From contig NZ_VCEK01000002.1 of the NCBI RefSeq assembly GCF_005862235.1, positions 1 through 64,000 of the forward strand: a DNA stretch of 64,000 nucleotides. Direction: 5' to 3'. Below are positions 1-46,562 of the stretch, piece after piece (position 1 is the stretch's first letter; each line of letters begins with the position of its first letter). Origin of the DNA: Saccharomonospora piscinae. GTDB lineage: Bacteria > Actinomycetota > Actinomycetes > Mycobacteriales > Pseudonocardiaceae. The position numbers and the translations under genes were made by a program. The notes beneath the pieces were generated by a model, which made no database searches, had not been told where the DNA came from, and was given only the letters and a program-made list of their open reading frames with translations.

Positions 1-182
1 CCGTGTCCGCAGCCTGCGTAGCCGTGTCCGCAGCCTGCGTAGCCGTGTCCGCAGCCTGCGTAGCCGTGTCCGCATCGTGCGGTGCCGTGTCCGCAGCCTG
101 CGTAGCCGTGTCCGCATCGTGCGGTGCAAACACGGCTACCTAACCTGCGGACACGGCTACCTGACCTGCGGACACGGTTACG
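1..182. repeat. Family A 21-bp-period repeat array, locus 1 (nine units)
   Basis: The core CCGTGTCCGCA starts at positions 1, 22, 43, 64, 85 and 106, exactly 21 bp apart. The reverse complement (TGCGGACACGG, first copy TGCAAACACGG) then starts at 125, 146 and 167, again 21 bp apart. The roughly 10 nt after each core vary between a few types, such as GCCTGCGTAG and TCGTGCGGTG. The array abuts the stop codon of the neighbouring minus-strand gene and may extend beyond the window edge. The orientation switch makes it a large inverted repeat. Confidence 0.95.
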
Positions 183-849
183 GGGCCACGGCCTGCCAGA
201 AGTTCGCTCCGAACTGGCTGATTCGCAGGGTGCGGCGCACGTACGTGGGCCTTCGGGCCAGCCGCGCCGCCTCGACCACCGCGTCGTCAGCGACGAGTAC
301 CTCGTACTGGGTGTCCAGCGCGGAGTCCGCCTTGGTGAGGTCGGCCAACCCAGCCCCGACCAGCCGTGTCACGTACACGGGCACACCCTCGGTGAGCACG
401 ACTCCCGCCGTGGCGCCGACGGTGGAGGCGTTGCGAAGCACCGTCCGGCCCACGCCACCGAGTGCGGTGCGCTCGGCGACATCGACGGCGGGATGTGGCG
501 CGCCGTCGGCCAGCGTCGCGAGGATACGGACCTCGTCGGGCACCAGATCCGACAGCACCTGCTCGTACAGACGCTGTCGCGCGTCGTCGCGGCCCAGCTC
601 GGCCGACTCCGCGAGCAGGGCGGCGGCCCGCACTCGCAGCGGATCGCCGTCGGCGCTCGGCTCGGGCCTCGGACCGGTGGCTTGCAGTTCGCGGCGGGAC
701 GTCGCCGGGTCCCCCGCCGGTGCCCCGTCGTCGACCCCGGGCAGGTAGCGGCTCAGTTCGTAGCCCGTACGCGCCGCCCACCCGGCCATCCGGCCCACAC
801 CGCGCACCAGGTTCCGCGTCATCACGGACCCGATGCTACTGCCGATCAC
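178..849 (-). CDS. Abi-alpha (DUF4393)-like protein
   Basis: A 223-residue soluble protein. The C-terminal two thirds resemble the Abi-alpha/DUF4393 family: a 'LVPDEVRILATLADG' segment near residue 100, a 'VGRTVLRNASTVGATAGV' segment, a 'LDTQYEVLVAD' segment near 185, and a closing 'RTLRISQFGANFWQA'. The family is named after a phage abortive-infection protein, but a defence role in actinobacteria is not established, so I claim only family resemblance. Its TAA stop touches the first unit of the family A array. It overlaps the end of the upstream zinc-ribbon gene by 4 bp, so the two are probably co-transcribed. The start is an ATG; a second in-frame ATG lies nine codons in. Confidence 0.6.
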   Translation of the reverse strand: MIGSSIGSVMTRNLVRGVGRMAGWAARTGYELSRYLPGVDDGAPAGDPATSRRELQATGPRPEPSADGDPLRVRAAALLAESAELGRDDARQRLYEQVLSDLVPDEVRILATLADGAPHPAVDVAERTALGGVGRTVLRNASTVGATAGVVLTEGVPVYVTRLVGAGLADLTKADSALDTQYEVLVADDAVVEAARLARRPTYVRRTLRISQFGANFWQAVAP

Positions 850-1160
850 GACCCTTTCGGGTGATCCCCATTCGGGTAATAGCCCCAGTGTTCGAGCGCG
901 CTGCGGATGAAGTCGGCCCCGATGCGGTTGGCCGCGGCCACGTTGCCTTCCGGGCAGGCCGGTGCGTCGTCTGGCTCCTGCACCACCCGGTCACCCTCCT
1001 GCGCGGGATGGGTCCAGTACTCACCGCACCCCGCGGGGCACGGCATCTCGATGGTGCGCAGGACGCCCCACTGCGGCTGCTGCCACGACAGCACCCCGGA
1101 CCCGGCACACAGCCGGCAGTCGTCACTTGGGGACCTGGCCGAGTCCTCCACAGTTGCCAC
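846..1160 (-). CDS. Small zinc-ribbon protein (DnaJ-type CxxCxGSG)
   Basis: About 104 residues. A 'CRLCAGSG' knuckle is followed some 20 residues later by 'CPAGCG', a four-cysteine arrangement like the DnaJ zinc-binding repeat. The rest is a short acidic region ending in an aromatic-rich helix ('IRSALEHWGYYP'). Function is unknown; nucleic-acid or protein binding through zinc would be typical. I chose the GTG at 1160 because GGAAGGA lies 5 nt upstream. A later GTG at 1151 and an earlier TTG at 1196 are possible. Its start overlaps the end of the tiny zinc-ribbon gene upstream and its end overlaps the Abi-alpha start, so the three look translationally coupled. Confidence 0.6.
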   Translation of the reverse strand: MATVEDSARSPSDDCRLCAGSGVLSWQQPQWGVLRTIEMPCPAGCGEYWTHPAQEGDRVVQEPDDAPACPEGNVAAANRIGADFIRSALEHWGYYPNGDHPKGS

Positions 1161-1233
1161 AGGCGTCCTTCCGGTTGGGGGCCAGCCCGGAACCAAGGCA
1201 GCGCGGGCAGTTCACCATGTCACCGAAGCTCAT
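1123..1233 (-). CDS. 36-residue zinc-knuckle miniprotein
   Basis: This is a very short reading frame of 36 residues. It contains 'CPRCLGSGLAP' and, about 10 residues later, 'CGNCGGLGQVPK', which is two CxxCxGxG knuckles and essentially a free-standing DnaJ zinc domain. ATG at 1233 is preceded by AAGGACG at good spacing. It overlaps the next gene of the same type by 38 bp. The knuckle pattern and overlap argue that it is real; function is unknown. Confidence 0.55.
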   Translation of the reverse strand: MSFGDMVNCPRCLGSGLAPNRKDACGNCGGLGQVPK

Positions 1234-1388
1234 CGTGCATCGTCCTTCGCGATTTCCGGAAGTGACGACGACTATATTCGCGACATCGGAGCACATCGGC
1301 GACTCGCGACGCCATCACCCGATCGCCGCAGCCCGGGCCTCGCCGGGTTTCGTGCAGTGAAGGCCACCCCAGCGCGGGCCGCCGGGCG

Positions 1389-2000
1389 TCAGCGCCCCAG
1401 CCACGCCTTGGCCTCCGCGAGGCCGTCGACGGTGATCTGGTGGCCCCCGCTGTGCCAGTGCTCGGTGACGTCGGCGCCACGCTCGCGCAGCACCGCGGCG
1501 AGTTCCTGGGCTGGCGCGAGCGGCGCCATCGGGTCGCGCCTGCCGTTCACCATGAGCACCCGACTGGCGGAGAGATCGTGGTGCGGCGGGTCGGGCACCG
1601 GCAGCATGGCCGCGAACAGCACCGCCTCGGCCAGCACGTCGGGTCGCAGCAGTACCGCGGCGGCCGCGATGTTGGCTCCGTTCGAGAACCCGGTGGCCAC
1701 GAGCCTGCGACCCCCGAGCCCGTAGTGCTCCCGGGCCTCGACCACGAAGTCGGCGAGCTGCCCGGCCCGGTAGATGACGTCTTCGGTGTCGAACACGCCC
1801 TCGGCATGACGGCGGAACCAGCGAGCCGCGCCCCGCTCGGTCACCGGACCCGCGGGGGCCAGCATCGGCGAGGACGGGCACAGCTCCTTGCCGAGCGACA
1901 CGATGTCGGCGGGGCTGCCACCCGTCCCGTGCAGGAGGAGCAGCACCGGGGCCGACGCACTGCCCTCGACGTACTCGTGGTCGAACGTCAGCTCGCTCAT
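1389..2000 (-). CDS. Phospholipase/carboxylesterase-family alpha/beta hydrolase
   Basis: A 203-residue cytosolic alpha/beta hydrolase. 'LLLLHGTGGSPADIV' gives the oxyanion loop, 'ATGFSNGANIAA' carries the nucleophilic serine (G-F-S-N-G), 'NGRRDPMAP' the acidic residue, and 'HSGGHQI' the histidine. Length and motifs fit the small carboxylesterase/phospholipase family. ATG at 2000 overlaps the TGA of the upstream dioxygenase (ATGA), so translation is probably coupled. The pairing with a ring-cleaving dioxygenase and a MarR regulator matches MhqD/MhqO-type quinone detoxification loci of Firmicutes; the physiological substrate here is inferred. Confidence 0.8.
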   Translation of the reverse strand: MSELTFDHEYVEGSASAPVLLLLHGTGGSPADIVSLGKELCPSSPMLAPAGPVTERGAARWFRRHAEGVFDTEDVIYRAGQLADFVVEAREHYGLGGRRLVATGFSNGANIAAAAVLLRPDVLAEAVLFAAMLPVPDPPHHDLSASRVLMVNGRRDPMAPLAPAQELAAVLRERGADVTEHWHSGGHQITVDGLAEAKAWLGR

Positions 2001-2959
2001 GTCCGCACCGGGTTGTTCTCGGCGGGCAGGTCCAGCGCGGGCAACGCCGCCTCGATCTGCTCGCGGTCCGGCTCCAGCCACGGCGGCAGTTTGAGTGCTC
2101 TGCCGAGTTCCAGCAACGGCTCGTCGATGCCGAAGCCGGGCTGGTCCGTGGCGATCTCCAGCAGGGTGCCGCCGGGTTCGCGGAAGTAGATGGAGCGGAA
2201 GTACTGCCGGTCCAGGATGGACGTGACACCGACCCCGCGGTCGAGCAGTTCGTCGCGCCAGGCCGACTGGGTGTCCTCGTCGGGAGCCCGCCACGCGACG
2301 TGGTGCACCGTGCCCGCCGCGACCAGCCCGCGCGGGGCGTCGGGTGTCACCAGGACGTCGACCGTGGCGCCGGGGCCGCCCTCTCCCGCCGCGAACCGGA
2401 AACGATCGCGCTCCTCGGCTTCGAACGAGAGGCCGAGGCCCTCCGTCAGCATGCCCGCGGTGGCGTCCTCCCGGCTCACCGACAGCGTCACCGAGTGCAG
2501 GCCCCGGATGGCGTGTTCGGCCGGCACCGCCGGGGTGTCCCACGGATCACGCGGGTCGCCCTGCGGGTGCGCCACCAGCGCCAGCGTCAGGCCGTCCGGG
2601 TCGCGGAAGTTCAGCGCGTCCTCGCCGTCTCGGTGGACCAGCTCGCTCTCGACTCCGGCCTCGCCGAGGTGCCGCCGCCACCAGCCCAGTGATCGCTCAG
2701 GCACGGAGAACGACGTGGTGGTCGCCTGCCCGGTGCCGACTCGGCCTCGGGGCGCGTCCCGCCACGGAAAGAAGGTCAGCAGCGTGCCGGGCCGACCGGA
2801 CTCGTCACCGTAGTACAGGTGATAGGTGCCCGGGTCGTCGAAGTTCACCGTGGTCTTCACCAGGCGAAGCCCCAGCGTGCGGAGATAGAAGTCGGCGTTG
2901 CGCCTGGGGTCACCCCCGATGGCGGTGACGTGGTGCAGTCCGCTCGTCCGAAACGGCAT
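1997..2959 (-). CDS. VOC-family ring-cleaving dioxygenase (MhqO-like)
   Basis: A 320-residue protein made of two glyoxalase/VOC modules. The first starts 'GLHHVTAIGGDPRRNADFY' (residues 7-25) and the second 'GLHSVTLSVS' near 155. Metal ligands are expected from His in 'LHHVTA' and 'TVHHVAW' and Glu in 'REPGGTLLEI'. The family cleaves quinols and related aromatics with Fe(II) and oxygen. AAGGAGGAGCC precedes the ATG. It is divergent from the MarR gene with 91 bp between, and the following esterase overlaps it by 4 bp. A two-gene operon under MarR control is the simplest reading. Confidence 0.85.
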   Translation of the reverse strand: MPFRTSGLHHVTAIGGDPRRNADFYLRTLGLRLVKTTVNFDDPGTYHLYYGDESGRPGTLLTFFPWRDAPRGRVGTGQATTTSFSVPERSLGWWRRHLGEAGVESELVHRDGEDALNFRDPDGLTLALVAHPQGDPRDPWDTPAVPAEHAIRGLHSVTLSVSREDATAGMLTEGLGLSFEAEERDRFRFAAGEGGPGATVDVLVTPDAPRGLVAAGTVHHVAWRAPDEDTQSAWRDELLDRGVGVTSILDRQYFRSIYFREPGGTLLEIATDQPGFGIDEPLLELGRALKLPPWLEPDREQIEAALPALDLPAENNPVRT

Positions 2960-3004
2960 GGCTCCTCCTTGGCGAGTGAGTACCTCCTACGTTAGAGCAT
3001 AAAC

Positions 3005-3018
3005 TCTTGCGGGCAAGA
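3005..3018. promoter_or_regulatory. Candidate MarR operator
   Basis: TCTTGC-GG-GCAAGA is a perfect 6-bp inverted repeat with a 2-bp centre. It lies in the 91-bp space between the dioxygenase and the divergent MarR gene, where a local dimeric regulator would bind. Binding is inferred. Confidence 0.45.
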
Positions 3019-3050
3019 TATATTCCCAGAAGAGAGTCCGGTATCCTGTC

Positions 3051-3548
3051 GTGGTGCCGATCCAACCCGACGACGATGAGATCGTGACCTGGTGGGGCCT
3101 CGTGATCGAGGGCTACCTCGCCACCCAGGACCGCCTGATGGGCGAGATCGCCGAACGTTTCGGACTCGCTCCCGCGTCCTTCGACGTTCTGCTGCGCCTG
3201 GTCCGTTCCCCTGATCACCGAATGCCGATGACCCGGCTCGCCCGCGAGGCCGCGCTGTCCAGCGGCGGGTTCACCAAGGTGGCCGACCGGCTCTGCGGCG
3301 CGGGCCTGATGCGCCGGGTCGCCAGCACTCACGACCGCCGGGTCACCTACGCCTGCCTGACCGAGCACGGACTGGACGTCGCCCGGCAGGCGCGTACCGC
3401 GTGCGCGGAGATCCTCCGCCGCACCGTGCTCGGCCCTCTCGGGCCCGAGGCGTCGGAGGAACTGGCGCGATCCATGCGGCTGCTGCGCGACACCCACAGC
3501 GGCGAGCCCGCGCCGGGCCCGGTGAGCGCCAGAAACGGCCGGGTCTAG
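3051..3548 (+). CDS. MarR-family transcriptional regulator
   Basis: A 165-residue winged-helix regulator. 'RFGLAPASFDVLLRL' is the first HTH helix pair (about residues 39-53), 'MPMTRLAREAALSSGGFTKVADRL' region the recognition helix (about 65-90), and 'RRVASTHDRRVTYACLTEHG' the wing. The C-terminal helix mediates dimerisation in this family. The start is one of two consecutive GTG codons at 3051/3054. It faces the dioxygenase-esterase pair and probably represses it in response to quinones or related electrophiles. No conserved sensing cysteine near the N-terminus is visible, so ligand binding rather than MhqR-like thiol chemistry may trigger it. Confidence 0.85.
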   Translation: MVPIQPDDDEIVTWWGLVIEGYLATQDRLMGEIAERFGLAPASFDVLLRLVRSPDHRMPMTRLAREAALSSGGFTKVADRLCGAGLMRRVASTHDRRVTYACLTEHGLDVARQARTACAEILRRTVLGPLGPEASEELARSMRLLRDTHSGEPAPGPVSARNGRV

Positions 3549-3590
3549 CAGCGGGCGGTCCGGACGTCGCCGCCCGGACCGCCGTCGCCG

Positions 3591-4208
3591 TCAGCGGATC
3601 ACACGGTACGTGAGATGTGCCGCGCTCTCGCCTTCGACGACACGGACTTGCTCCAACGACGGCATGTCGGAGCCGATGCCGTCGAACAGCGGCACCCCGT
3701 CGCCCAGCAGGATCGGCACCACGTGCAGCTGGAGTTCGTCGATCAGGCCGGCTCGCAGGTACTGCCGCACCGTCTGTGCCCCGCCCGCGATGTCGACGTT
3801 CCGGTCGCCCGCGGCCTCCCGGGCCTGTTTGAGCGCGCTCTCGATGCCGTCGGAGACGAAGGTGAAGCTCGTGCCGCCTGCCTTCTCGAGTACCGGGCGC
3901 GGCCGGTTGGTGAGCACGAACACCGGCGCCCGGAACGGCGGATTCTCGCCCCACGGCAGTTCACCGGTGTCGAACATGGTCCGGCCCATCACGACCGCAC
4001 CGGTGCCGTCGAACCACGCACCGAGAATGCGCGAATCGGTGTTGTCGACGCCGCCGGAGAGGTTCTGCCGCTCGCGCCAGCTGGCGAGACCGGCGAACCA
4101 CTCGTGCAGTTCGATCCCCCGATCTCCCACCGGATTGTCCGCGGTGATGTTGGGCCCCGCGATGAATCCGTCGAGGGAGATCGCCAGGTCGGCGGTGACA
4201 ATGGACAT
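3591..4208 (-). CDS. DHFR/RibD C-terminal-like reductase
   Basis: A 205-residue protein of the bacterial RibD C-terminal/dihydrofolate-reductase-like family. Visible: 'ADLAISLDGFIAGPN' (residues 5-19), 'GAVVMGRTMFDTGE' (near 70), 'PVFVLTNRPRP', and 'DIAGGAQTVRQYL' (near 145), where the glycine-rich turn binds NADPH. These proteins are often found next to ECF41/42 sigma factors and YCII proteins, as here. The substrate is unknown. ATG at 4208 follows GAAAGGAAACG. It lies downstream of the YCII gene on the same strand with a 92-nt gap, so it may belong to the same transcription unit. Confidence 0.8.
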   Translation of the reverse strand: MSIVTADLAISLDGFIAGPNITADNPVGDRGIELHEWFAGLASWRERQNLSGGVDNTDSRILGAWFDGTGAVVMGRTMFDTGELPWGENPPFRAPVFVLTNRPRPVLEKAGGTSFTFVSDGIESALKQAREAAGDRNVDIAGGAQTVRQYLRAGLIDELQLHVVPILLGDGVPLFDGIGSDMPSLEQVRVVEGESAAHLTYRVIR

Positions 4209-4300
4209 GAGTCGTTTCCTTTCTCCGGATGCGGGCGCTGCCGAGCACCAGTGGTGTGCCCTTGAGTCTTGCCCGCGGGTGTGACAGTCCCGGCCGGTCT

Positions 4301-4669
4301 TCAGTTCGCGGCGTCCGAGTAGACGATCGGCCGGACCTCGATCCCGACACCGTCGAGCCGGGCGTCCGGAATCATCGCGGCGACGGCGTGCGCCCGATCC
4401 CTGTCCGCACAGTCGACGATGTAGTACCCACCCATCGACACCTCGGACGGGTGGAACGGGCCACGCCGCACGGCCGTGTCGCCGTCGCTGACGCTCACCA
4501 CTGTGCTGTCGTCGGTGTCGGCCAGCGCGTGGGTCGACACGAACTCGCCCGTGCGTTTCATCGCCTCGGTGAAGCGGCCGTGTCCCGCGACGATGTCGTC
4601 GCGCTGCTGCGTCGACAGGGCCTCGACCAGCTCCGAGATCCCCCGCATGATGAGCATGTAGTGCGGCAC
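4301..4669 (-). CDS. YCII/DGPF-family protein
   Basis: A 122-residue YCII-domain protein ('HYMLIMRGISELVEAL', 'GRFTEAMKRTGEFVSTHAL', 'GGYYIVDCADRDRAHAVAAM'). The family signature DGPF is degenerate here ('RRGPFHPSEV'), unlike the intact DGPF in the paralogue at 6005-6373. GTG at 4669 is preceded by AAGGGACAG. Proteins of this family are conserved partners of ECF42 sigma factors, one of which lies just upstream. The ferredoxin-like fold suggests a small-molecule or enzyme-like function, which remains unknown. Confidence 0.8.
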   Translation of the reverse strand: MPHYMLIMRGISELVEALSTQQRDDIVAGHGRFTEAMKRTGEFVSTHALADTDDSTVVSVSDGDTAVRRGPFHPSEVSMGGYYIVDCADRDRAHAVAAMIPDARLDGVGIEVRPIVYSDAAN

Positions 4670-4749
4670 AACTGTCCCTTCCTGTCCCGGCACCCGGACG
4701 GTGCCTCTCACAGGGAGTCGGAGCGGGACCGCCGATCTCGACACTTCTG

Positions 4750-5997: not shown

Positions 5998-6004
5998 GAG
6001 ACGC

Positions 6005-8817: not shown

Positions 8818-8893
8818 TGCGGACACGACTGCACAAAGTGCGGACACGGCTGCATGGGCTGCGGACACGGCTGCATGGGCTGCGGACACGGTG
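8818..8893. repeat. Family A repeat array, locus 2 (four units, inside the paa operon)
   Basis: TGCGGACACG[A/G] starts at 8818, 8839, 8860 and 8881, exactly 21 bp apart; the conserved core reads CCGTGTCCGCA on the minus strand, the sense strand of paaD. The array begins about 10 nt after the paaD stop. All units share one orientation, with linkers such as GCCCATGCAG. Confidence 0.93.
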
Positions 8894-8903: not shown

Positions 8904-9398
8904 TCAGAACTCCTTCACGTGCTCGAACGGTTCCTCGCAGGCACGGCAGCGCCGCAGCGAGCGGCAGGCCGTCGAGCCGAAGGCGGACAGCGACACGGTG
9001 TCGCGCGAGCCGCAACGCGGGCACGGGACCACGCGGCGCGGTGGTTCCAGCGTCAGCGGCACCGCGGTCCCCGCTCCGCCGGACACCACGTGCTGCGGCG
9101 GCGCGATTCCCGCCTCGGTGAGCCTGTTCCGGCCCCGCTCGCTGATCCAGTCGCTGGTCCACGGCGGATGCAGCACCGTGCGGACCTCGACCTCGGCGAA
9201 CCCGGCACGGTGCAGGGCCCGCACCACGTCCGCCCGCATCTCGTCCATCGCGGGGCAGCCGCTGTAGGTCGGGGTCAGCGACACCACGACCCGGCCGTCC
9301 GATTCGGACACATCGCGGAGCACGCCGAGATCGGCCAGCGTCAGCATCGGCAGCTCGGGATCGCGGACCTGTTCCGCCACGGAGCGCGCGGTCACCAT
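8904..9398 (-). CDS. paaD: Phenylacetate degradation protein PaaD
   Basis: A 164-residue protein. The N-terminal MIP18/DUF59 domain contains 'TPTYSGCPAMDEMRADV' (residues 46-62), with the Cys expected in Fe-S or metal handling. The C-terminal part is a zinc ribbon ('CPRCGSRDTVSLS' then 'CRSLRRCRACEEP'). PaaD is needed for active phenylacetyl-CoA epoxidase, probably in metal-centre maturation. ATG at 9398 overlaps the end of paaC by 7 bp. Confidence 0.92.
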   Translation of the reverse strand: MVTARSVAEQVRDPELPMLTLADLGVLRDVSESDGRVVVSLTPTYSGCPAMDEMRADVVRALHRAGFAEVEVRTVLHPPWTSDWISERGRNRLTEAGIAPPQHVVSGGAGTAVPLTLEPPRRVVPCPRCGSRDTVSLSAFGSTACRSLRRCRACEEPFEHVKEF

Positions 9399-11507: not shown

Positions 11508-11509
11508 GG

Positions 11510-20471: not shown

Positions 20472-21896
20472 ATGGCATCGCGACTCGACCCGTACCGGGG
20501 CAGGCGGCGGGAGGGCCGCACGCCCGAGCCGCTGCCCGGTGAGGTGGCCACGACCGGCGAGGGTGACCGGTTCGTCGTCCACGAGCACCACGCCCGCAGG
20601 CTGCACTGGGACGTGCGGCTCGAACGCGACGGCGTCCTCGTGTCGTTCGCCGTGCCGAAGGGGCTGCCCGACGAGCCGGGCACCGTGCGCCTCGCCGTGC
20701 ACACCGAGGACCACCCGCTCGACTACGCCACCTTCTCGGGCGAGATCCCACCGGGCGAGTACGGCGCGGGGCGCATGTCGATCTGGGACCACGGCCACTA
20801 CGAAACCCTCAAGTGGACCGAGCGCGAGGTGGCGGTGCTGCTGCACGGGCAGCGGCTGGAGGGCACCTACGTGTTCTTCCGTTCCGGCGATCGCGGCTGG
20901 AACGTCATCCGCTCCGATCCCCCCGACGACCCCGGCTGGAGCCCGCCGCCACCACTGCTGCGGCCGATGCTCGCCGTGGCGGGGACGCTGCCCGAGCCTG
21001 CCGAGGACGCGCGCTGGGGCTACGAGTTCAAGTGGGACGGGGTGCGCGCCCTCGCCAGGGTGGACGGGGGCCGAGCCACACTGTTCTCCCGCAACGGCGA
21101 CGACATCAGCGGCACCTACCCGGAACTACGGGCACTCGGCGAGCGGCTCGGCAGCACGCGGGTGTGGCTCGACGGGGAGATCGTGGCCCTGCGCGACGGC
21201 AGGCCGAGCTTCGCCGCACTCCAGCGCCGGATCAACGCCGGTGAGCAGCGAGCGCGCAGCCTGGCCCGGCGGCACCCCGTGACCTACCTCGTGTTCGACC
21301 TGCTGCACCTCGACGGCCGTTCCTGCCTGGACCTGCCGTATCGGCAGCGCAGGTGGCTGCTGACCGAGCTCGACCTCGCCGGGGAGCACTGGCAGGTCCC
21401 GCCCGCCTTCGAGGGCGGTGGCCCCGCCGTGGTGGCCGCTGCCGCCGAACAGCAACTGGAAGGCGTGATCGCGAAACGGCTCGACTCGCCGTACCGGCCC
21501 GGTGACCGCAGCGGTGCCTGGCTCAAACTCACCGACGTGCGCACGGCCGAGGTGGTGATCGGCGGCTGGCGGCGGGGCGAGGGAAGGCGAGCGGAGACGT
21601 TCGGATCGCTGATGCTGGGGCTGCCCGGCGAGCACGGCCTGCGCTACCTCGGCCAGGTCGGCACCGGTTTCGACGACGCGGCGCTGCGCGCGCTCTCGGC
21701 CCGGTTACGCCGGCTGGAACGCCGCACCTCGCCGTTCGCCGAGACACTGCCCCGCGACCGGGCCGAGGGCGCCCACTGGGTGCGCCCGGCACTCGTCGGC
21801 GAGGTGGCATTCAAGAGCTGGACCGACGACGGCAGACTGCGCGCACCCGTCTGGCGTGGGCTGCGAACGGACCGCGACCCGGAGGAGCTGCGATGA
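20472..21896 (+). CDS. LigD-like 3'-phosphoesterase / ATP-dependent DNA ligase
   Basis: A 474-residue two-domain protein of bacterial non-homologous end joining. The N-terminal phosphoesterase domain has 'FVVHEHHARRLHWDVRLE' (residues 35-52) and 'PPGEYGAG' (near 93), with the metal-binding His and Asp. The ligase domain has the nucleotidyl-accepting Lys187 in 'EFKWDGVRALA', 'VWLDGEIVAL', 'YLVFDLLHLDG', 'LEGVIAKRLDSPY' and 'GAWLKLTD'. In mycobacterial LigD these are fused to a polymerase domain; here that domain is a separate gene overlapping the stop by 4 bp (ATGA). No Ku gene is in the window. Confidence 0.88.
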   Translation: MASRLDPYRGRRREGRTPEPLPGEVATTGEGDRFVVHEHHARRLHWDVRLERDGVLVSFAVPKGLPDEPGTVRLAVHTEDHPLDYATFSGEIPPGEYGAGRMSIWDHGHYETLKWTEREVAVLLHGQRLEGTYVFFRSGDRGWNVIRSDPPDDPGWSPPPPLLRPMLAVAGTLPEPAEDARWGYEFKWDGVRALARVDGGRATLFSRNGDDISGTYPELRALGERLGSTRVWLDGEIVALRDGRPSFAALQRRINAGEQRARSLARRHPVTYLVFDLLHLDGRSCLDLPYRQRRWLLTELDLAGEHWQVPPAFEGGGPAVVAAAAEQQLEGVIAKRLDSPYRPGDRSGAWLKLTDVRTAEVVIGGWRRGEGRRAETFGSLMLGLPGEHGLRYLGQVGTGFDDAALRALSARLRRLERRTSPFAETLPRDRAEGAHWVRPALVGEVAFKSWTDDGRLRAPVWRGLRTDRDPEELR

Positions 21897-22801
21897 CCGC
21901 CGGACAAGTCGTCGACATCGAGGGACGCCGGTTTCGGCTGTCCAATCTGGACAAGGTCTTCTACCCGGACAGCGGGTTCACGAAGGGCGACGTGATCGAT
22001 TACTACGTGCGCGTGGCTCCGGTGCTGCTGCCGCACGTCCGCGACCGGCCACTCACGCTGAAGCGGTATCCCGACGGGGTCGCGGCCTCGTCGTTCTTCG
22101 AGAAGAACGTCTCCCGCCACGCACCGGACTGGGTCCGCACCGTGCGCATCGACACCCCCGGCAGCACCCGGGGTTCGGAGAGCGCCGACTTCGCACTGGT
22201 CCAGGACCTGCCCACCCTCGTGTGGGCGGCCCACCTCGCGAGCATCGAACTGCATATTCCACAGTGGACTGTCGGGCCGAGGGGCGGGCTCCGCGACCCG
22301 GACCTGCTCGTCTTCGACCTCGACCCCGGCGAACCGGCGACGATCGTGGAGTGCTGCACAGTGGCCCGGTGGCTGCGCGACGAACTCGACGCCGACGGGC
22401 TGAGCGCACACCCGAAGACGAGCGGCTCCAAGGGACTGCAACTCTACGCGCCCGTGCGCGCGCGCTCGGGCGAGCGCACCAGCGCCTACGCCAAACGGCT
22501 CGCCGAGCGGCTCGAACAGGCGCACCCCGAGCTCGTCGTGTCCCGGATGGCCAAGAACCTGCGCGGCGGCAAGGTGCTCATCGACTGGAGCCAGAACAAC
22601 CCGAAGAAGACGACCGTGGCGCCGTACTCCCTGCGCGCCCGGCCGTCGCCCACCGTGTCCACTCCGGTGACCTGGAGCGAGGTCGAGACGTGTGAGACAC
22701 CGGAGGACCTCACCTTCGTCGCCGCCGAGGTCCTCGACCGGATCGCGGAGTCCGGAGACCTGTTCGAACCACTCCTCGCGGCGAACCGCCCACCCCTGTA
22801 A
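21893..22801 (+). CDS. LigD polymerase (primase-polymerase) domain protein
   Basis: A 302-residue archaeo-eukaryotic primase-type polymerase used in end joining for gap filling. Visible: 'NLDKVFYPDSGFTKGDVIDYY' region near residue 17, 'RDRPLTLKRYPDGV' (near 52), the metal-binding 'LLVFDLDPGEP' (D-x-D, near 140), 'SGSKGLQLYAPV' (near 177) and 'GGKVLIDWSQNNPKKTTVAPYS' region (near 223). GGAGGAGCTGCG precedes the ATG, which overlaps the ligase stop. Its TAA stop runs directly into a family A array. Confidence 0.9.
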   Translation: MTAGQVVDIEGRRFRLSNLDKVFYPDSGFTKGDVIDYYVRVAPVLLPHVRDRPLTLKRYPDGVAASSFFEKNVSRHAPDWVRTVRIDTPGSTRGSESADFALVQDLPTLVWAAHLASIELHIPQWTVGPRGGLRDPDLLVFDLDPGEPATIVECCTVARWLRDELDADGLSAHPKTSGSKGLQLYAPVRARSGERTSAYAKRLAERLEQAHPELVVSRMAKNLRGGKVLIDWSQNNPKKTTVAPYSLRARPSPTVSTPVTWSEVETCETPEDLTFVAAEVLDRIAESGDLFEPLLAANRPPL

Positions 22802-22925
22802 CCGTGTCCGCAGATCAGGTAGCCGTGTCCGCAGCCCACGCAGCGGAGTTCGCACCGCACGATGCGGACACGGCGACGCAAACTGCGGACACGGCTACGC
22901 AGTCTGCGTAGGATTCGGACACGAT
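22799..22925. repeat. Family A repeat array, locus 3 (two forward, two inverted units plus junction)
   Basis: CCGTGTCCGCA starts at 22802 and 22823; the inverted core TGCGGACACGG starts at 22863 and 22884, with degenerate copies after. The junction between orientations contains TTCGCACCGCACGATG, which is nearly identical to the junction in locus 1 (TTTGCACCGCACGATG on the minus strand). The first core begins at the stop codon of the LigD polymerase gene. Confidence 0.92.
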
Positions 22926-25669: not shown

Positions 25670-25732
25670 CCGTGTCCGCAGCCCACGTAGCCGTGTCCGC
25701 AGGCTGCGTAGCCGTGTCCGCGGTTCCCGTAG
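25670..25732. repeat. Family A repeat array, locus 4 (three units)
   Basis: CCGTGTCCGC[A/G] starts at 25670, 25691 and 25712, exactly 21 bp apart, each followed by a variable linker ending GTAG. It lies 4 nt beyond the stop of the amidohydrolase. Unlike the other loci, the core is in antisense orientation to that gene. Confidence 0.93.
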
Positions 25733-25736: not shown

Positions 25737-27374
25737 TCAGCCCGCCCCGCCCCGGGCATAGGTCAGCTTCTCGCCGCCGTACACCGCCTCACCGCCGACG
25801 AACGTCGCCAGCACGCCGATCCCGTCGATGGCCGACGACGGCACGGTCGTGGGGTCGTCGTCGAGCAGCACGAGGTCGGCGTCCATCCCGGCCTCGATGT
25901 GGCCTCGCCGGTGCTCCAACCCGCCCGCGTACGCCGCGTGCGTGGTGAACGCCCGCAACGCCTCGGTGGCGTCCACGCGCTCGTCCTGCGCCAGCACCAC
26001 ACCACCGCTCGTGGTGCGCTCGACCATGTTCCGCATGCCCGCCAGCGGCGCGCCCGTGCCCACGCAGGGCCGGTCGGAGCTGGCCGGGACCCGCAGTCCC
26101 GCGTCGAGGAACGACCGGTGCCGGTACACCCACGGCACGCGGGCGTCGCCGAGCGCGGCGCGGATGGTGTCGCCGATCTCGTACAGGAAGCGCGCCTGCG
26201 GCACCGGGACGACGTCGAGTGCCGCCAGTCGCGGCAACTGGTCGGGCCGCACCATGGCCGCGTGCTCGATCCGGTGCCGCACACCGGGCCGGGGGAACTC
26301 CCGCTGCGCCTGCTCGAACGCGTCGAGCGTGAGGTCGATGGCCCGGTCGCCGATCGCGTGCGCGGCCACCCGCCAGCCGCTGCGGTGCGCGGCGAGGATG
26401 CGTGCCCGCAGCACCTCAGGGTCGTCGCCCAGCACGCCGAGTCCCCCACCGCCCTCGAACGGCTCCGTCACCGCCGCCGTGCGACTGCTCAACGCGCCGT
26501 CGGTGAAGATCTTCATCGGGCCGATGCGCAGCCTGTCGTCGCCGAACCCGCTGCGCAGGCCGAGATCGAGCCCCACGAGTTCCTCGGCGAGCGGGTGCAG
26601 TACGTCCGCGGCGGGCATCAGCTCGACCCGCGCCGTCAACTCACCACGCTGCCGGGCGAGCTGGTAGGCCGCCGCCTCGGCCGGGCTGTGGCCGATCCAG
26701 CCGCCCCCGATGCCCGCCTCCGTGACGTGGGTGAGGCCCTCCGCGGCGTACACCTTCGCCGCCCTGGCGATGGCCTCGGCCAGCTCGTCGACCGGGTACG
26801 GCTTGACGAGCGCGTCCACGAGCTGCTGGGCCTGCTCGGCGAGCAGGCCCGTGGCCTCGCCCGCCGCGTCGCGCTCGACGACGCCGCCCTCCGGCACCGG
26901 CGCGCTGCCGTCGAGAATCCCCGCCTTGTCGAGGATCGCGCTGCTGGCCACGCACATGTGCGCGGAGCGGTGCTTGAGCCACACGGGACGGCCACCACCG
27001 GCGCGGTCCAGCGCCGCCCGCTCGGGGTGGCGGCCCAGCACGAAGTCGTCGTACTGCGACCCGACGACCCAGGCATCCGACGGGAGCTGCGCGGCGCGGG
27101 CGGCCACCGTGTCGTACAGCTCGTCGAGCGTGCGGCATCCGGACAGGTCCAGCTCCGCGAGCGACAGCCCGTACCAGACCATGTGGTTGTGCGCGTCGGT
27201 GAATCCGGGCGTGAGCACGGCACCGCCGCCGTCCACGACCGTGCGCGCGGAGAGGCCGGCGACCTCGTCGTCGACGCCGACGATGCGACCGCCGAGCACG
27301 CCCACGGTATGGGCCCGGGGCGCCTCGTCCCGCATGGTCAGGGCACGCACGTTTCGCAGAAGCAGGTCCAGCAC
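25737..27374 (-). CDS. YtcJ-type amidohydrolase
   Basis: A 545-residue metal-dependent amidohydrolase. 'VLTPGFTDAHNHMVWYG' (near residue 55) holds the HxH metal ligands, 'IGPMKIFTDGAL' (near 290) the expected lysine, 'VAAHAIGDRAIDL' (near 340) and 'RIEHAAMVRPDQL' (near 370) further His ligands, and 'SDRPCVG' the Asp. YtcJ/AF-type family members hydrolyse formamides or related amides; substrate unknown. GTG at 27374 follows AGGGAGGAAA. A lipoprotein gene is divergent. Confidence 0.85.
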   Translation of the reverse strand: MLDLLLRNVRALTMRDEAPRAHTVGVLGGRIVGVDDEVAGLSARTVVDGGGAVLTPGFTDAHNHMVWYGLSLAELDLSGCRTLDELYDTVAARAAQLPSDAWVVGSQYDDFVLGRHPERAALDRAGGGRPVWLKHRSAHMCVASSAILDKAGILDGSAPVPEGGVVERDAAGEATGLLAEQAQQLVDALVKPYPVDELAEAIARAAKVYAAEGLTHVTEAGIGGGWIGHSPAEAAAYQLARQRGELTARVELMPAADVLHPLAEELVGLDLGLRSGFGDDRLRIGPMKIFTDGALSSRTAAVTEPFEGGGGLGVLGDDPEVLRARILAAHRSGWRVAAHAIGDRAIDLTLDAFEQAQREFPRPGVRHRIEHAAMVRPDQLPRLAALDVVPVPQARFLYEIGDTIRAALGDARVPWVYRHRSFLDAGLRVPASSDRPCVGTGAPLAGMRNMVERTTSGGVVLAQDERVDATEALRAFTTHAAYAGGLEHRRGHIEAGMDADLVLLDDDPTTVPSSAIDGIGVLATFVGGEAVYGGEKLTYARGGAG

Positions 27375-38190: not shown

Positions 38191-38277
38191 GTGCCGCGAA
38201 GGCCACCCTCGCTGCACAGGGCGCAGTGAAGGCCACCCTCGCTGCGTCTGACGCAGTGAAGGTGGCCTTCGCGGCAC
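38191..38277. repeat. Family B palindromic repeat, copy 1 (convergent gene ends)
   Basis: GTGCCGCGAAGGCCACC (38191-38207) and GGTGGCCTTCGCGGCAC (38261-38277) are perfect 17-bp inverted arms. Between them lies a second GAAGGCCACCCTCGCTGC copy and CTGCGTCTGACGCAG, a further inverted repeat. It separates the convergent otsB and nuclease-like genes, so it may act as a bidirectional terminator. Confidence 0.9.
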
Positions 38278-39335: not shown

Positions 39336-39420
39336 GCAGTGAAGGCCACCCTCGCTGCGTCTGGCGCAATCAGGGTGGCCTTCACTGCGTCTCGCGCAGC
39401 GAAGGTGGCCTTCGCGGCAC
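39336..39420. repeat. Family B palindromic repeat, copy 2
   Basis: GCAGTGAAGGCCACCCT (39336-39352) and AGGGTGGCCTTCACTGC (39372-39388) are perfect 17-bp inverted arms, followed by a further GAAGGTGGCCTTCGCGGCAC (39401-39420) identical to the end of copy 1. It lies between the nuclease-like gene and the 3' end of radA. Confidence 0.9.
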
Positions 39421-41481: not shown

Positions 41482-41801
41482 TTCCGGTCCCTCCTACTCA
41501 GGGCTGCCCTGGGCATCGACACTATCCCGACCCGCACGCTGGGAATTCACCCGGTGCCCCACGAGTGTGGCGCAGGCGGCACCGGACCACCGAGATCAAC
41601 TAGCGGAATCGTGTCCACAATGGATTACCGGAAACGGCGGGAAAGACCCCGCCGTCACCTGCGTGAGTATGCGAATTACACATTTGTCAACCCCCTCGAC
41701 TCCCCGAATCAGGCCACTGACCTGCGAAGACGAGTCCGGGTGCCTGGTTCGGCACCGAGCGCGCGTGCTAAGCTGGACGCAGCGAAAGGGGCAGAGGACA
41801 C
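41482..41801. promoter_or_regulatory. Divergent lpqE-carD promoter region
   Basis: A 320-bp space between the divergent lpqE-like and carD genes. TAAGCT at 41769-41774 fits a housekeeping -10 element 28 bp before the carD ATG; I see no clear -35 element. GAGGA (41793-41797) serves as the carD ribosome binding site. No convincing gene is present. Confidence 0.35.
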
Positions 41802-42293
41802 ATGGTTTTCAAGGTCGGAGAGACCGTCGTCTACCCGCACCACGGTGCCGCACTCATCGAAGCGATCGAAACCCGCGTGATCAAGGGCGAGGAGAAGCAG
41901 TACCTCGTCCTGAAAGTCGCGCAGGGTGACCTCACGGTTCGCGTCCCCGCTGACAACGCCGAGGTCGTCGGCGTGCGCGACGTCGTCGGCCAGGACGGCT
42001 TGAACCGCGTTTTCGACGTGCTGCGCGCACCCCACACCGACGAGCCGACCAACTGGTCTCGCCGGTACAAGGCCAACCTGGAAAAGCTCGCCTCCGGCGA
42101 CGTCAACAAGGTGGCCGAAGTGGTGCGCGATCTGTGGCGACGGGAGAAAGACCGTGGCCTTTCCGCTGGTGAGAAGCGGATGCTGGCCAAGGCGCGGCAG
42201 ATTCTGGTCAGCGAACTCGCACTCGCCGAGGGCACCGACGAGGGCAAGGCCGAGGTCCTGCTCGACGAGGTGCTGGAAACCGCGGTGGTTTAG
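41802..42293 (+). CDS. carD: CarD-family RNA polymerase-binding regulator
   Basis: A 163-residue essential-type transcription regulator. The N-terminal Tudor-like RNA-polymerase interaction domain is residues 1-55 ('[20 protein letters not shown]'), the C-terminal helical domain has the DNA-contacting Trp ('[17 protein letters not shown]', residues 84-100) and '[16 protein letters not shown]'. CarD stabilises open complexes and tunes rRNA transcription. The stop is TAG at 42291, after which the same reading frame continues straight into ispD. Confidence 0.96.
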
Positions 42294-42296
42294 TCG

Positions 42297-43010
42297 CTGC
42301 GCCAGGTCATAGCACTGGTCCCCCTCGGGGACGACGACGTTCCGGACACGGCGGGCGCGCTGGCGCGCGTCAACGGTGTGACACTGCTCGCTCACGCCGT
42401 GCGTCGACTGGTGGACTCGGGTTGCGTCGACCGGATCGTGATAGCCGGTCCACACGCGACACCGTCCGGGCCCGACCTCGGGCTCGACCCGGATTCCGCC
42501 GTGTCCGTACTCGTCACGTCAGGCAATGCGGACCGGATCGAGTCGGCGCGCTGCGCACTGCGTCGCGCCGACCCTCGCCCGTCCGACGTCGTCCTGATAC
42601 ACGATCCGGTACGCCCGTTCACTCCGCCGGAGACGATCCGTGCGGTCGTCGCTGCTGTGCGTGACGGCGCGCCCGTGGCCGTGCCGGTGGAGCCCGTCAC
42701 CGACACCGTCAAGGTGCTCGACGCCAGCGGTGACGTACTCCACACGCTGGACCGCGACCGGCTGCGCCGGGCGCAGTCGCCGCGCGGGTTCTCCGCCGCG
42801 CTGCTGGACCACGCGGACCTGAGCGAGGTGTTCTTACTCACCGGCGCCGCGGCGAGCGCGTGCCCGGTACCGGGACATCCGCACGGGATGCGCGTGAGCA
42901 CCCCCTACGAACGCACGGTCGCCGAGGCCGTGTTCGCGCAAGCCGGGGAGAGGGACGGCGATGAGAATCGGTCAGGGAGTCGACGTTCACCCCATCGAGC
43001 CGGGGCGTGA
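42297..43010 (+). CDS. ispD: 2-C-methyl-D-erythritol 4-phosphate cytidylyltransferase IspD (start unclear)
   Basis: IspD transfers CMP to methylerythritol phosphate in the MEP isoprenoid pathway. '[20 protein letters not shown]', '[20 protein letters not shown]', '[12 protein letters not shown]' and '[13 protein letters not shown]' are typical. Homologues begin with a strand like 'VIALVP', and '[16 protein letters not shown]' is encoded here from 42303, but no ATG, GTG or TTG occurs between the carD stop and GTG 42378. I set the start at CTG 42297 on homology; GTG 42378 would remove the first strand. The usual glycine-rich AAGxGxR loop is absent, and Asp-rich 'GDDDVPD' takes its place. The 3' end overlaps ispF by 50 bp. 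Confidence 0.75.
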
Positions 43011-43425
43011 GTGCTGGCTCGCCGGCTTGGAATGGCCCGGCGCCGATGGCTGCTCCGGACACTCGGACGGTGACGTCGCGGCACACGCCCTGTGTGACGC
43101 CCTGCTGTCGGCCGCCGGGCTCGGCGACCTCGGCGCCGTCTTCGGCACGGGAGACAGCCGATGGGCGGGCGCCCACGGCGCCGAACTGCTCACCGAGGTC
43201 CGCCGCCGCATCACCGCGGCCGGGTACCGCGTGAACAACGCGGTGGTCCAGGTCGTCGGCAACCGGCCCAAGATCGGCACACGGCGCGACGAGGCACAGC
43301 GCGTGCTCTCCGAGGCGGCGGGCGGCCCCGTTTCGGTCTCGGCGACCACCACCGACGGACTCGGTCTGACCGGGCGTGGTGAGGGTGTGGCGGCCATCGC
43401 GACGGCACTGCTCCTGCCCCGGTGA
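42961..43425 (+). CDS. ispF: 2-C-methyl-D-erythritol 2,4-cyclodiphosphate synthase IspF
   Basis: A 154-residue MEP-pathway enzyme, next step after IspD/IspE. '[12 protein letters not shown]' (Asp and His zinc ligands, residues 5-14), '[21 protein letters not shown]' (near 34-55), 'DLGAVFG' and '[20 protein letters not shown]' (near 125) are diagnostic. It overlaps the end of ispD. Confidence 0.95.
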
Positions 43426-43441
43426 CCGGTAGCGTGGCCCC

Positions 43442-44128
43442 GTGACGATCAAGGCGGTGCTCTTCGACTTCTCCGGCACACTGTTCCGGCTCGAACACGA
43501 TCCGAGCTGGCTGGCCGATCTCACCGATCACCGGGGCGAGACCTTCGACGTCGAGGCCAGGGCCGAGTTGATGCGGCGCATGACGGCGCCGGTGACGCTG
43601 AGCGTGGATCTGGACGACGAGCACCTCCACGCATGGCACCACCGCGACCTCGATCCCGCCCTGCACCGCACCGTGTACCTGGAGGTGTTGCGGCAGTCGG
43701 GCATCCCGCACCGACAGCAGGCGGAGTCCCTGTATGGCAGGCTCGTCGATCCGGCGTCGTGGACGCCGTATCCCGACACCGCCGAGGTACTGCGACGGGT
43801 CTCGGGCGCGGGACTCGCTGTGGGCGTGCTGAGCAACATCGCGTTCGACATCCGGCCCGCCTTCACCAGGCTCGGCCTCGACCGGCACGTGGACGACTTC
43901 GTCCTCTCCTACGAGGTCGGCGCCATCAAGCCCGACCCGGCGATGTTCCGGCTCGCGCTCGACCGCCTCGGTGTGGCCCCCGGCAACGCACTCATGGTCG
44001 GCGACAGCGAGGAGGCCGACGGTGGGGCCCGCGCGCTGGGGTGCGCGTTCGCGCTGGTGGAGCCGTCACCGACGGCGACGCGCACGGACGGGCTGCTGAC
44101 CGCCCTGCGCGAGCATTCCGTGCTCTGA
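43442..44128 (+). CDS. HAD-superfamily hydrolase
   Basis: A 228-residue HAD-like enzyme. '[14 protein letters not shown]' (residues 5-18) has the nucleophile Asp, but the usual second Asp (DxD) is Ser (D-F-S-G-T). Other motifs: '[12 protein letters not shown]' (motif II, near 125), '[14 protein letters not shown]' (motif III Lys, near 160) and '[16 protein letters not shown]' (motif IV, near 183). A DxSGT first motif occurs in some HAD hydrolases, but the substrate cannot be predicted. It sits between ispF and cysS. Confidence 0.82.
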
Positions 44129-44145
44129 CCCGTACCATTTGCGAC

Positions 44146-45525
44146 GTGGCCCTTCACCTGTTCGACACGGCGACCCGGCAGGTGCGCGAGTTCCGACCCG
44201 CGCGCGGTGGAACGGCGTCGCTGTACGTCTGTGGCGCCACCGTGCAGGGAATCCCGCACATCGGGCACGTGCGGGGCGCGCTCAACTACGACGTGCTGCG
44301 GCGGTGGCTGGTCCACTCCGGACTCGACGTGCTCTTCGTCCGCAACGTCACCGACATCGACGACAAGATCCTCACCAAGGCCGCCGACGCGGGCAGGCCG
44401 TGGTGGGAGTGGGCGGCCACCCACGAGCGCGCGTTCGAGGACGCCTACACCGCACTCGGCTGCCTGCCGCCGTCGGCGGCGCCGAGGGCCACCGGGCACA
44501 TCACGCAGATGATCGAGCTGATCCAGCGGCTGATCGACTCGGGGCACGCCTACGCGGCGGGCGGAGACGTGTACTTCTCGGTGGCGACGTTCGGCGACTA
44601 CGGCGCGTTGTCGGGCCAGCGGACCGAGGACGTGCAGCAGGGCGAGACCCAGGCCGAGGGCAAGCGCGACCACCGCGACTTCACGTTGTGGAAGGCGAGC
44701 AAGGCCGGCGAGCCCTCGTGGCCGACTCCGTGGGGCCCCGGCAGGCCGGGCTGGCACCTGGAGTGCTCCGCGATGGCGACGGCCTACCTCGGCTCGGAGT
44801 TCGACATCCACGGCGGCGGCGTCGACCTGGTGTTTCCCCACCACGAGAACGAGCGCGCCCAGTCGCTGGCCGCCGGTGACGGGTTCGCGCGGTACTGGCT
44901 GCACAACGCCTGGGTGACCATGTCGGGCGAGAAGATGTCGAAGTCGCTCGGCAACGTCGTCTCGATCCCGCAGATGCTGCGCCGCTACCGGCCCGTCGAG
45001 TTGCGCGCCTACCTCATCCAGCCGCACTACCGGTCCACCATCGAGTACTCCGACGAGGCGTTGTCGGAGTCGGCGCAGGGCTACCGGCGCATCGAGCAGT
45101 TCCTGCGTCGCATGCGGGGCACCGTCGGCGAGATCGGCATCGGCACCGTCCCGGCCGAGTTCGGCGCGGCCCTCGACGACGACCTCGGCACGCCGCAGGC
45201 GTTCGCGGTACTGCACAACACGGTGCGCGACGGCAACGCCGCACTGGACGCCGCGGACCGGGACAAGGCGCGGGAGCTGGCCGAGGCGGTCCGCGCGATG
45301 GTGGCGGTGCTGGGCATCGACCCGCTCTCGGCGCAGTGGGCCGAGCACGCGGGAGGCGGGACCGAGGCGTTGACCGCACTGGTGGATGCCCTGCTCGCCG
45401 AGCGCAGGAAAGCCCGTGCCGACCGCGACTTCGCCGCAGCCGATGCGATCAGGGACCGGCTCACCGAGGCCGGCATCGCCGTGGAAGACACCCCCGATGG
45501 TCCGATGTGGACAGTGAGAGACTGA
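44146..45525 (+). CDS. cysS: Cysteinyl-tRNA synthetase
   Basis: A 459-residue class I synthetase. Zinc-binding '[18 protein letters not shown]' (residues 25-42, includes the HIGH motif), '[14 protein letters not shown]' (near 204), '[13 protein letters not shown]' (near 228) and the KMSKS loop '[12 protein letters not shown]' (near 264). Length is normal for bacterial CysRS. GTG at 44146. Its stop lies 3 nt before rlmB. Confidence 0.96.
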
Positions 45526-45528
45526 CGA

Positions 45529-46497
45529 ATGGCTGGCAATTCCCGTCGCCGCGGCGCGATACGTAAGCAGGGCACGAAGAAGGGGTCCGTCGTCGGTTCC
45601 GGCGGCCAGCGCCGCAAGGGCCTCGAAGGCAAGGGGCCGACACCCAAGGCGGAGCACCGCCCCGGGCACCCGGCCCAGCGCAAGGCCGCCGCCGCGGCGG
45701 CACGGACCGAGCGCAAGCGCACGGCGTCCAAGAAGGCGGCCGACACCCCCGAGATCATCGCGGGCCGCAACCCCGTCGTGGAGGCGCTGCGGGCCGGAGT
45801 GCCCGCCACGGCCCTGTACGTGGCGCTGAACATCGACGCCGACGACCGCGTCACCGAGGCCGTGCGCGTCGCCTCCGACAAGGGCATCTCGCTGCTGGAG
45901 GTGCCGCGCGAGGAACTCGACCGCAAGACCGGCGGCGCGGTACACCAGGGCCTCGGCCTCCAGGTGCCGCCCTTCGACTACGCGCACCCCGACGACCTGC
46001 TGCGGGCCGCGCGGGAGTCCGGTGAGCCGCCGCTGCTCGTGGCGCTCGACGGCGTCACCGACCCGCGCAACCTCGGGGCGGTGATCCGCTCGGCCGCCGC
46101 CTTCGGCGCCCACGGCGTGCTGCTGCCGAGCAGGCGCAGCGCCGGCATGACGGCCGTGGCCTGGCGCACGAGCGCGGGCGCGGCCGCCCGCCTGCCCATC
46201 GGTGTGGCCACCAACCTCACCCGCCAGCTGCGGGAGTGGGCCGCCGACGGGCTGATGATCGCCGGGCTCGACGCCGACGGCGCCACGGACATCGACACGA
46301 TGAACCTCGACGTGGACCCGCTGGTGGTCGTCGTGGGCTCGGAGGGCCGTGGCCTGTCCCGGCTGGTGCGGGAGACGTGCGACTTCACGGTGTCCATCCC
46401 GATGGCCGCGGGTGTCGAGTCGCTCAACGCGTCCGTCGCGGGCGCGGTACTGCTGGCGGAGGTCGCCCGCCGCCGCCGAGCCGCGGGCCGGGTCTGA
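45529..46497 (+). CDS. rlmB: 23S rRNA (guanosine-2'-O)-methyltransferase RlmB
   Basis: A 322-residue SPOUT methyltransferase. A Lys/Arg-rich N-terminal extension (residues 1-72) precedes the SpoU substrate-binding domain ('[18 protein letters not shown]', near 77) and the knotted catalytic domain ('[20 protein letters not shown]', near 170; '[20 protein letters not shown]' near 265; '[20 protein letters not shown]' near 287). It follows cysS by 3 nt, so they are co-transcribed. A family A array starts just after its stop. Confidence 0.93.
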
Positions 46498-46499
46498 AG

Positions 46500-46562
46500 C
46501 CGTGTCCGCAGGCTAGGTAGCCGTGTCCGCAGCTCCCGTAGCCGTGTCCGCACCTCTCGCAT
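46500..46562. repeat. Family A repeat array, locus 5 (three units)
   Basis: CCGTGTCCGCA starts at 46500, 46521 and 46542, exactly 21 bp apart, with linkers GGCTAGGTAG, GCTCCCGTAG and CCTCTCGCAT. The array begins 3 nt after the rlmB stop, in sense orientation. Confidence 0.93.

Follow-up and report, generated by a model that had tools for sequence, protein, structure and literature searches.

Introduction

The described repeats that lie closest in location to those reported here are the repetitive extragenic palindromic (REP) elements. In the excerpts available from Di Nocera 2013 (PMC3733652), members of the GTAG and CGTC super-families are found within 20 bp of the 3′ ends of open reading frames (ORFs), mostly between convergent or same-strand genes, and the GTAG termini of REP elements often provide TAG stop codons. 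Here, we describe a family of repeat arrays found in the first 64,000 nucleotides of contig NZ_VCEK01000002.1 of Saccharomonospora piscinae (hereafter the window, i.e., this whole stretch at its full length). The arrays are built of 21-bp units with a conserved 11-bp core, and five of them had been recognized in the window by an initial annotation made from the letters of the DNA. Our preferred, albeit tentative, reading is that they represent a dispersed REP-like extragenic family whose 21-bp unit may be the binding site of a putative sequence-specific DNA-binding protein.

The source genome (4.9 Mb) is referred to as G000, and the further genomes of the same genus as G001 to G011 (12 genomes in all). 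Unit statistics were drawn from 860 kb of G000 and from 400 kb each of G003, G005, and G009.

Array Architecture and the Spacing Lock

The core CCGTGTCCGCA, with up to one mismatch, is found 25 times in the window, against 5.5 matches expected, and none of 100 shuffles reached this number. The five array sites hold 22 of the 25 matches (20 exact cores and two with one mismatch), and further decayed units are visible in the arrays beyond these. The claim of an 11-bp core recurring at a 21-bp period at five sites is upheld by these counts, and the spacing of the cores within any same-strand run of the window arrays is 21 bp throughout. The genome-wide scan that the initial annotation had called for gave 244 exact 11-mer pairs at 21-bp spacing in G000 and none for the reversed control. 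One part of that description has to be corrected: arrays 1 and 3, which had been taken as single runs, carry their last units on the other strand, and the step at the junction is 40 bp, i.e., 19 + 21. In its full form, an array is a dyad of sense units, a short center, and inverted units, in which one half is often decayed.

The unit can be written as CGTGTCCGC[A/G]-N6-G-N4 (21 bp), with mostly pyrimidines at +12 and +13. The G at +16, a position that lay outside the seed of the unit search, is present in all 172 units from four genomes (86, 32, 27, and 27). In the samples of G000, G003, G005, and G009, 9-mers of the unit top the list of 3′-flank words, and direct repeats are most often spaced by 21 bp. 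The outer ends of the arrays often carry TGAC[AG][CT] ahead of the first core, and the center that joins facing cores, a 10-mer around CG-YR-CG, is nearly symmetric. The innermost core of facing halves is the most decayed (38% exact, n = 77), compared with 74% exact for the outermost, a figure that is partly so by construction. A few arrays in G003 and G009 are arranged tail to tail, with the inverted run first, and some of these hold a CCGGCG-type stem between the halves. The string GTGTCCGCA matches seven of the nine letters of the actinobacterial DnaA box TTGTCCACA.

The strictest property of the family is its spacing. When every same-strand pair was counted in which one core was exact and the other had at most one mismatch, 255 of the 257 pairs lying 15–27 bp apart were at exactly 21 bp, with none at 20 or 22 bp; among pairs 36–48 bp apart, 151 of 156 were at 42 bp and none at 41 or 43 bp. 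Any displaced units would have shown in this count. The facing distance is looser than the same-strand spacing: among 113 listed pairs of facing exact cores, 95 are at 19 + 21k bp, 10 at 17 + 21k, seven at 18 + 21k, and one elsewhere, and converging exact cores mostly lie 40, 61, 82, or 103 bp apart (19 + 21k). The spacers are diverse, with 145 distinct 12-mers out of 222 (summed over four genomes).

The same core is accompanied by clade-specific flanking letters. At +17 to +20, TAGC is found in 43 of 55 spacers of G000 and in 6 of 15 of G005; TACG or CACG occupies these positions in 15 of 17 spacers of G003 and in 12 of 13 of G009. No four-letter type at +17 to +20 is common to the G000/G005 and G003/G009 groups in the samples, and TAGC, TAGT, or TAGG following the G at +16 is seen in 50 of 55 G000 spacers as opposed to none of 30 in G003 and G009 together. 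The two groups of genomes do have some spacer types in common at +10 to +16.

Judged from sequence, the 21-bp lock may reflect a constraint set by a putative protein on one face of the DNA, with in-register recombination as the alternative. The latter would be part of a wider explanation, according to which the arrays are a non-functional REP- or satellite-like family that has spread by copying and ectopic gene conversion, has come to lie behind stops through the purging of insertions elsewhere and the deletion of intervening DNA, and owes its register to in-register recombination. We regard such an origin as a genuine but somewhat doubtful possibility. The amplification in G005 of a core that is itself mutated, CGTGTCCTC, fits with it, whereas the invariant G at +16, the conservation of the core amid varied spacers, and the absence of 20- or 22-bp spacing do not.

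Placement at Gene Ends

Placement was assessed on 93 arrays from G000, G003, G005, G009, and three genomes of two other genera; the 20 G005 regions and those of the other genera were chosen for holding arrays. Genes were taken from a codon-based caller, whose stops are exact and whose starts are approximate. Arrays lying no more than 200 bp from the end of a sequence were dropped (array 1 of the window included), four of the 93 arrays that lie inside called genes were set aside, and two G005 arrays slightly overlapping a gene end were counted as near. The 89 placed arrays are found between convergent (40), same-strand (40), and divergent genes (nine), while divergent regions account for 27–38% and convergent regions for 14–20% of intergenic bases.

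Among the 80 arrays with an adjoining stop codon, 59 lie within 16 nt of it, against 36.2 expected from uniform placement in the same intergenic regions, and 67 are in sense at the nearest stop. The corresponding counts within 16 nt are 20 of 22 in G000 (13.2 expected), 24 of 33 in G005 (14.8), 4 of 7 in G009 (1.9), and 7 of 10 in the other genera (2.8). Part of the sense bias is due to the dyad form, whose outer ends face the genes. The association with stop codons put forward for the window is therefore found outside it as well, in a looser form in other species. For the window itself, the distance of about 12 nt initially given was nearly right (gaps of 0, 12, 0, 14, and 2 nt for arrays 1 to 5), and four of the five arrays are indeed in sense from the stop, the antisense one being that at 25670. 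A non-functional family could be placed in the same manner, given that published REP elements likewise occur no more than 20 bp from the 3′ ends of ORFs in the excerpts of PMC3733652. Along contig C1 of G005, the array sites appear uneven by eye: among the matches listed (to 3.19 Mb), 29 fall in the first 1.39 Mb and five between 1.39 and 3.08 Mb.

RNA Folding

Location behind stops would also suit intrinsic bidirectional terminators or hairpins of 3′ untranslated regions, in which facing runs fold and thereby end or protect transcripts, and RNA-end processing or transcript termination had been among the initial suggestions. Two-sided arrays do fold as RNA well below their shuffles (mean z −7.9, 12 of 12 below −2). 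However, such a fold is a consequence of the inverted repeat, and folding is weak in one-sided arrays (mean z −1.17; 13 of 41 below −2). Across 39 junctions, a few of which may be chance alignments, compensating changes at the innermost core pairs numbered 4, against 4.2 by a re-pairing shuffle (P 0.65); the innermost cores vary independently, and therefore selection for pairing is not seen. Furthermore, the array at 171.5 kb of G000 lies between a stop and an intergenic region that is kept at 65 bp in G003, G005, and G009, and at one G005 end a GC hairpin belonging to the convergent gene is, by eye, retained next to the array. On balance, we consider it improbable that the arrays are terminators or protective hairpins, and RNA processing or termination of the hairpin type has lost support.

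Shared Sites, Duplication, and Exchange

Gene ends that carry arrays tend to be shared between species. From G000 to G003, sense arrays recur at five of nine orthologous ends, compared with two of 296 other ends (Fisher 1.2e-7). Shared ends were also counted between G003 and G009 (2/6 vs 1/253, P 0.0013), G005 and G009 (1/2 vs 0/224, P 0.009), G003 and G005 (1/8 vs 2/282, P 0.08), G000 and G009 (1/9 vs 1/221, P 0.08), and G000 and G005 (1/10 vs 2/276, P 0.10). This retention at orthologous ends speaks against a family without function. At the 171.5 kb site of G000, where G003, G005, and G009 keep the 65-bp region, the array has no counterpart, and therefore arrays also arise anew.

Identical adjacent spacers make up 32 of 86 pairs in G005 (1.4% of random pairs) and 7 of 29 in G000 (6.6% of random pairs), which points to local tandem duplication in these two genomes; no identical pair is seen among 7 in G003 or among 2 in G009. 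In addition, two G005 arrays that lie 2.6 Mb apart in opposite orientation share 97.3% identity over 220 bp, which stops at most 2 bp from the array ends. One of these sites follows an IMP-dehydrogenase-type gene and holds differently composed two-way units in G001, G002, and G009; the site is therefore older than its present content. We read the copied pair, from its sequence, as a likely product of ectopic exchange between arrays. Local duplication and exchange of content are both in line with a non-functional family.

The copied pair bears on yet another explanation, namely, that the arrays are relics of non-autonomous transposons, consisting of facing runs of transposase-binding sites without cargo. 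IS21 and Tn7 elements have ends with multiple sites, to which the facing runs can be likened. The presence of one whole array at two distant G005 loci in opposite orientation, and of an array at a position that in three relatives is taken up by a short intergenic region, would agree with such an origin. Nevertheless, no consistent target duplication is seen by eye at the copied pair, and 10 proteins encoded beside arrays or between array pairs, the latter in G005 and G000, carry no transposase domain (one of them, L220:7193-7876, located between an array pair, matched no Pfam family). Y1 transposase was not found in eight of the 12 genomes, including G005 and G010. The Mu/Tn7-type transposase profile PF09299 had no match anywhere, its positive controls being equally silent. 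Transposon relics seem to us an unlikely source of the arrays.

Distribution across Genomes

The 9-mer pair with the G at +16 is present in 18 of 390 Pseudonocardiaceae genomes, whereas the control pattern gave one match overall. Arrays occur in eight of the 12 genomes of the genus, with 87 to 313 pairs each; outside the genus, G031 (125 pairs), G020 (85), and G371 (32) stand out, and seven others have one to five pairs. Sites were placed for part of the matches in array-rich genomes, and the listed sites are a lower bound. At two mismatches, G004 has 264 pairs against none for the control, and G006, G007, G008, and G011 have 2, 6, 5, and 8 pairs against 1, 1, 0, and 1, respectively. These four thus remain close to the control, and diverged arrays in the array-less subclade were discarded as a possibility. 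A two-gene tree of 11 of the 12 genomes sets G003, G004, G001, G009, and G010 apart from the rest and places G000 beside the array-less genomes. That a whole subclade is devoid of arrays would be expected of a non-functional family.

Neither 24 genomes from other families within the order nor the viral contigs searched contained the exact 11-mer pair, and array 1 had no match in plasmids or phages. In a scan of genome contigs, exact 11-mer pairs were found, among the matches listed, in at least five records outside the family. According to the gene caller, the sites in L032, L043, and L049 are inside genes, and L039 has a two-unit site between genes; in L044 (Streptomyces antnestii), five in-register units of decreasing match lie ahead of a gene start. 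None of these sites has facing units, and we read the at least five sites, without proof, as unrelated repeats.

Low-copy genomes were considered as possible holders of a source element. This candidate was set aside, as the arrays of G229 and G173 adjoin ordinary genes (a GMC oxidoreductase and a Fic/DOC gene). Next to the single array site listed for G173 lie 2.4 kb without a called gene; they contain frames with helix-turn-helix domains (L195:9908-12028). G411 (L197–L199) has a low-copy sub-type with CGTGTCCGCGCYCCAG units, and three of its arrays are found in divergent regions and not at stops.

A Putative Reader of the Arrays

If the unit is a protein-binding site, one protein molecule or dimer would occupy each unit, all on the same face of the helix, since 21 bp corresponds to two helical turns between direct units. 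Occupancy of every unit on one face would explain why the core and the spacing are conserved whereas the remaining spacer positions drift. Behind a stop, where ribosomes no longer cover the mRNA, arrays bound in this way would form a barrier to transcription or an insulator. New arrays may settle behind stops because insertion there is least harmful. Arrays grow by local tandem duplication, and at least one appears to have been exchanged between loci. The binding-site reading is supported by the spacing lock, the core and the G at +16 kept amid varied spacers, the facing geometry, the lack of hairpin covariation, the clade-specific flanks, the shared orthologous ends, and the duplication and exchange of content.

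Several points weigh against it. The register could be maintained by recombination between arrays and not by a protein. Four of the 12 genomes of the genus (G006, G007, G008, and G011), three of which are 82–83% complete, have no arrays, and the function of the arrays, if any, is therefore dispensable. The gap statistics of G003 are weak, with 4 of 8 arrays within 16 nt of the stop against 3.5 expected, and at the nearest stop 13 of the 80 arrays, seven of them in G005, run antisense or for some other reason do not count as in sense. A reader protein did not come to light, and neither the Y1 transposase nor the reverse transcriptase family of Pfam follows the distribution of the arrays. The helical-phase protein binding suggested at the outset has gained support from the lock (255 of 257 pairs at 21 bp despite varied spacers).

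A more ambitious version of the binding-site reading, which we consider rather unlikely, is that of a lineage-specific gene-end platform: a putative protein would coat the phased dyad arrays behind stops and halt or insulate transcription, reader and site would have co-evolved into clade dialects, and the reader would have been lost together with the sites in one subclade. If a protein does read the arrays, they would represent a protein-based marking of gene ends in GC-rich bacteria. If nothing reads them, they would still be a REP-like family, one that departs from the usual pairing of palindromic unit and Y1 transposase, as well as an example of fixed-period repeats copied and homogenized between gene ends.

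Arrays and Neighboring Genes of the Window

The arrays of the window and the genes bordering them are collected in Table 1. The contig starts inside array 1, and the left flank of this array is thus outside the sequence. The G000 contigs C3, C4, and C5 start inside an array or at most 90 bases from one; arrays probably break the assembly. At the orthologous ends of the LigD-type gene, which borders array 3, in-register units are found in G003 and G009, and diverged units in G004. The intergenic region of array 5 holds differently arranged arrays in G003 and G005, and the C-terminus of the preceding SpoU-type protein is alike, by eye, in orthologues with and without a stop-adjacent array.

Table 1. 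Coordinates of the arrays, bordering genes, and further elements in the window.
Feature	Position	Strand	Remarks
Array 1, two-sided	1..177		Six + units at 1–116; 8 nt between 11-mer cores at 117–124; decayed − core at 125–135; two − units at 146–177
Abi_alpha gene (Pfam; abortive-infection type)	178..849	−	TAA stop abuts array 1, gap 0
Array 2, four units (three exact)	8818..8891	−	In sense from gene 8904–9398, gap 12
Gene upstream of array 2, PaaD-type domains	8904..9398	−	
LigD primase-polymerase-type gene	21893..22801	+	TAA abuts array 3, gap 0
Array 3, two-sided	22802..22894		+ units at 22802 and 22823; decayed + unit at 22844; 8-nt center at 22855–22862; − units at 22863 and 22884
Array 4, three units (two exact)	25670..25722	+	Antisense to stop of − gene 25737–27374, gap 14
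Second repeat family, first site	38198..38262		
Second repeat family, second site	39355..39413		
SpoU-type rRNA methyltransferase gene upstream of array 5	45529..46497	+	
Array 5, three units	46500..46552	+	Begins 2 nt past TGA stop
Cobalamin riboswitch	53389..53622	−	

A search of the window against Rfam at the gathering threshold returned the cobalamin riboswitch and one tRNA only, with no match for the arrays. A second dispersed family of the hairpin type, GAAGGCCACC...GGTGGCCTTC, with a 30-bp period, is also located at gene ends, and GAAGGCCACC is present in 22 of the 3′ flanks of the 860 kb. Hairpins that look similar by eye stand at the end of the LigD gene in G011 and of the SpoU gene in G006, both of which are array-less genomes.

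Comparison with Known Systems

Mycobacterial interspersed repetitive units and variable-number tandem repeats (MIRU/VNTR) are likewise tandem intergenic repeats of actinobacteria; unlike the arrays, they have longer units and no facing halves. A CRISPR-type array was rejected, as the sites are dispersed over the genome and the spacers come from a recurring set rather than being unique. The TAACTGA repeats of Beggiatoaceae resemble the arrays, in the excerpts of PMC4679880, in that they are short, directly repeated, present in many intergenic regions, and not known to have a trans-acting factor; however, their units measure 7 bp and, in the genome that was mainly studied, most of them closely precede start codons, whereas the arrays lie behind stops. 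Bacterial interspersed mosaic elements (BIMEs), as far as the excerpts of PMC2817692 describe them, are composite short-repeat arrays with two orientations in intergenic regions, but they alternate orientation, while the arrays are direct runs that face once.

No description of the 21-bp array form was found in open-licence papers, and among the matches listed for the sequence itself no title pointed to this repeat. The initial statement that no such element is known stands in this respect for the form, but not for the stop-adjacent placement, which has been published for REP elements (PMC3733652, in the excerpts considered). The likeness to REP elements as portrayed there extends to dispersion, high copy number, extragenic location near 3′ ends (40 of 89 arrays convergent and 9 of 89 divergent), and possible tandem reiteration, and GTAG stands ahead of the core in most G000 units. 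On the other hand, the REP unit of these excerpts is a palindrome of 20–40 bp that carries a tag at its end and is partnered by a Y1-type transposase (PMC3733652), whereas the array unit is non-palindromic and its period is fixed at 21 bp. The consensus is not self-complementary as a whole, symmetry being present between facing halves only, and GTAG is missing in G003 and G009.

The Y1 transposase family (PF01797), which includes the REP-associated tyrosine transposases (RAYTs), is found in four of the 12 genomes (G000, G003, G004, and G007); it had no match in the array-bearing G001, G002, G005, G009, and G010, and G007 has it without arrays. A drive of the REP/RAYT kind was rejected, given that the Y1 transposase does not track the arrays and that two array-bearing genomes do without GTAG. 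The full-length Y1 copy of G000 adjoins, by eye, an apparent TnpB frame. A drive by reverse transcriptase was rejected as well, with RVT_1 present in only two of the 12 genomes (G002 and G004) and not in G000, G001, G003, G005, G009, or G010. Overall, the family is REP-like in location and perhaps in spread; it departs from REP elements in three features, i.e., the palindromic unit, the GTAG tag across species, and a Y1 transposase that accompanies the arrays, and is not classed among them.

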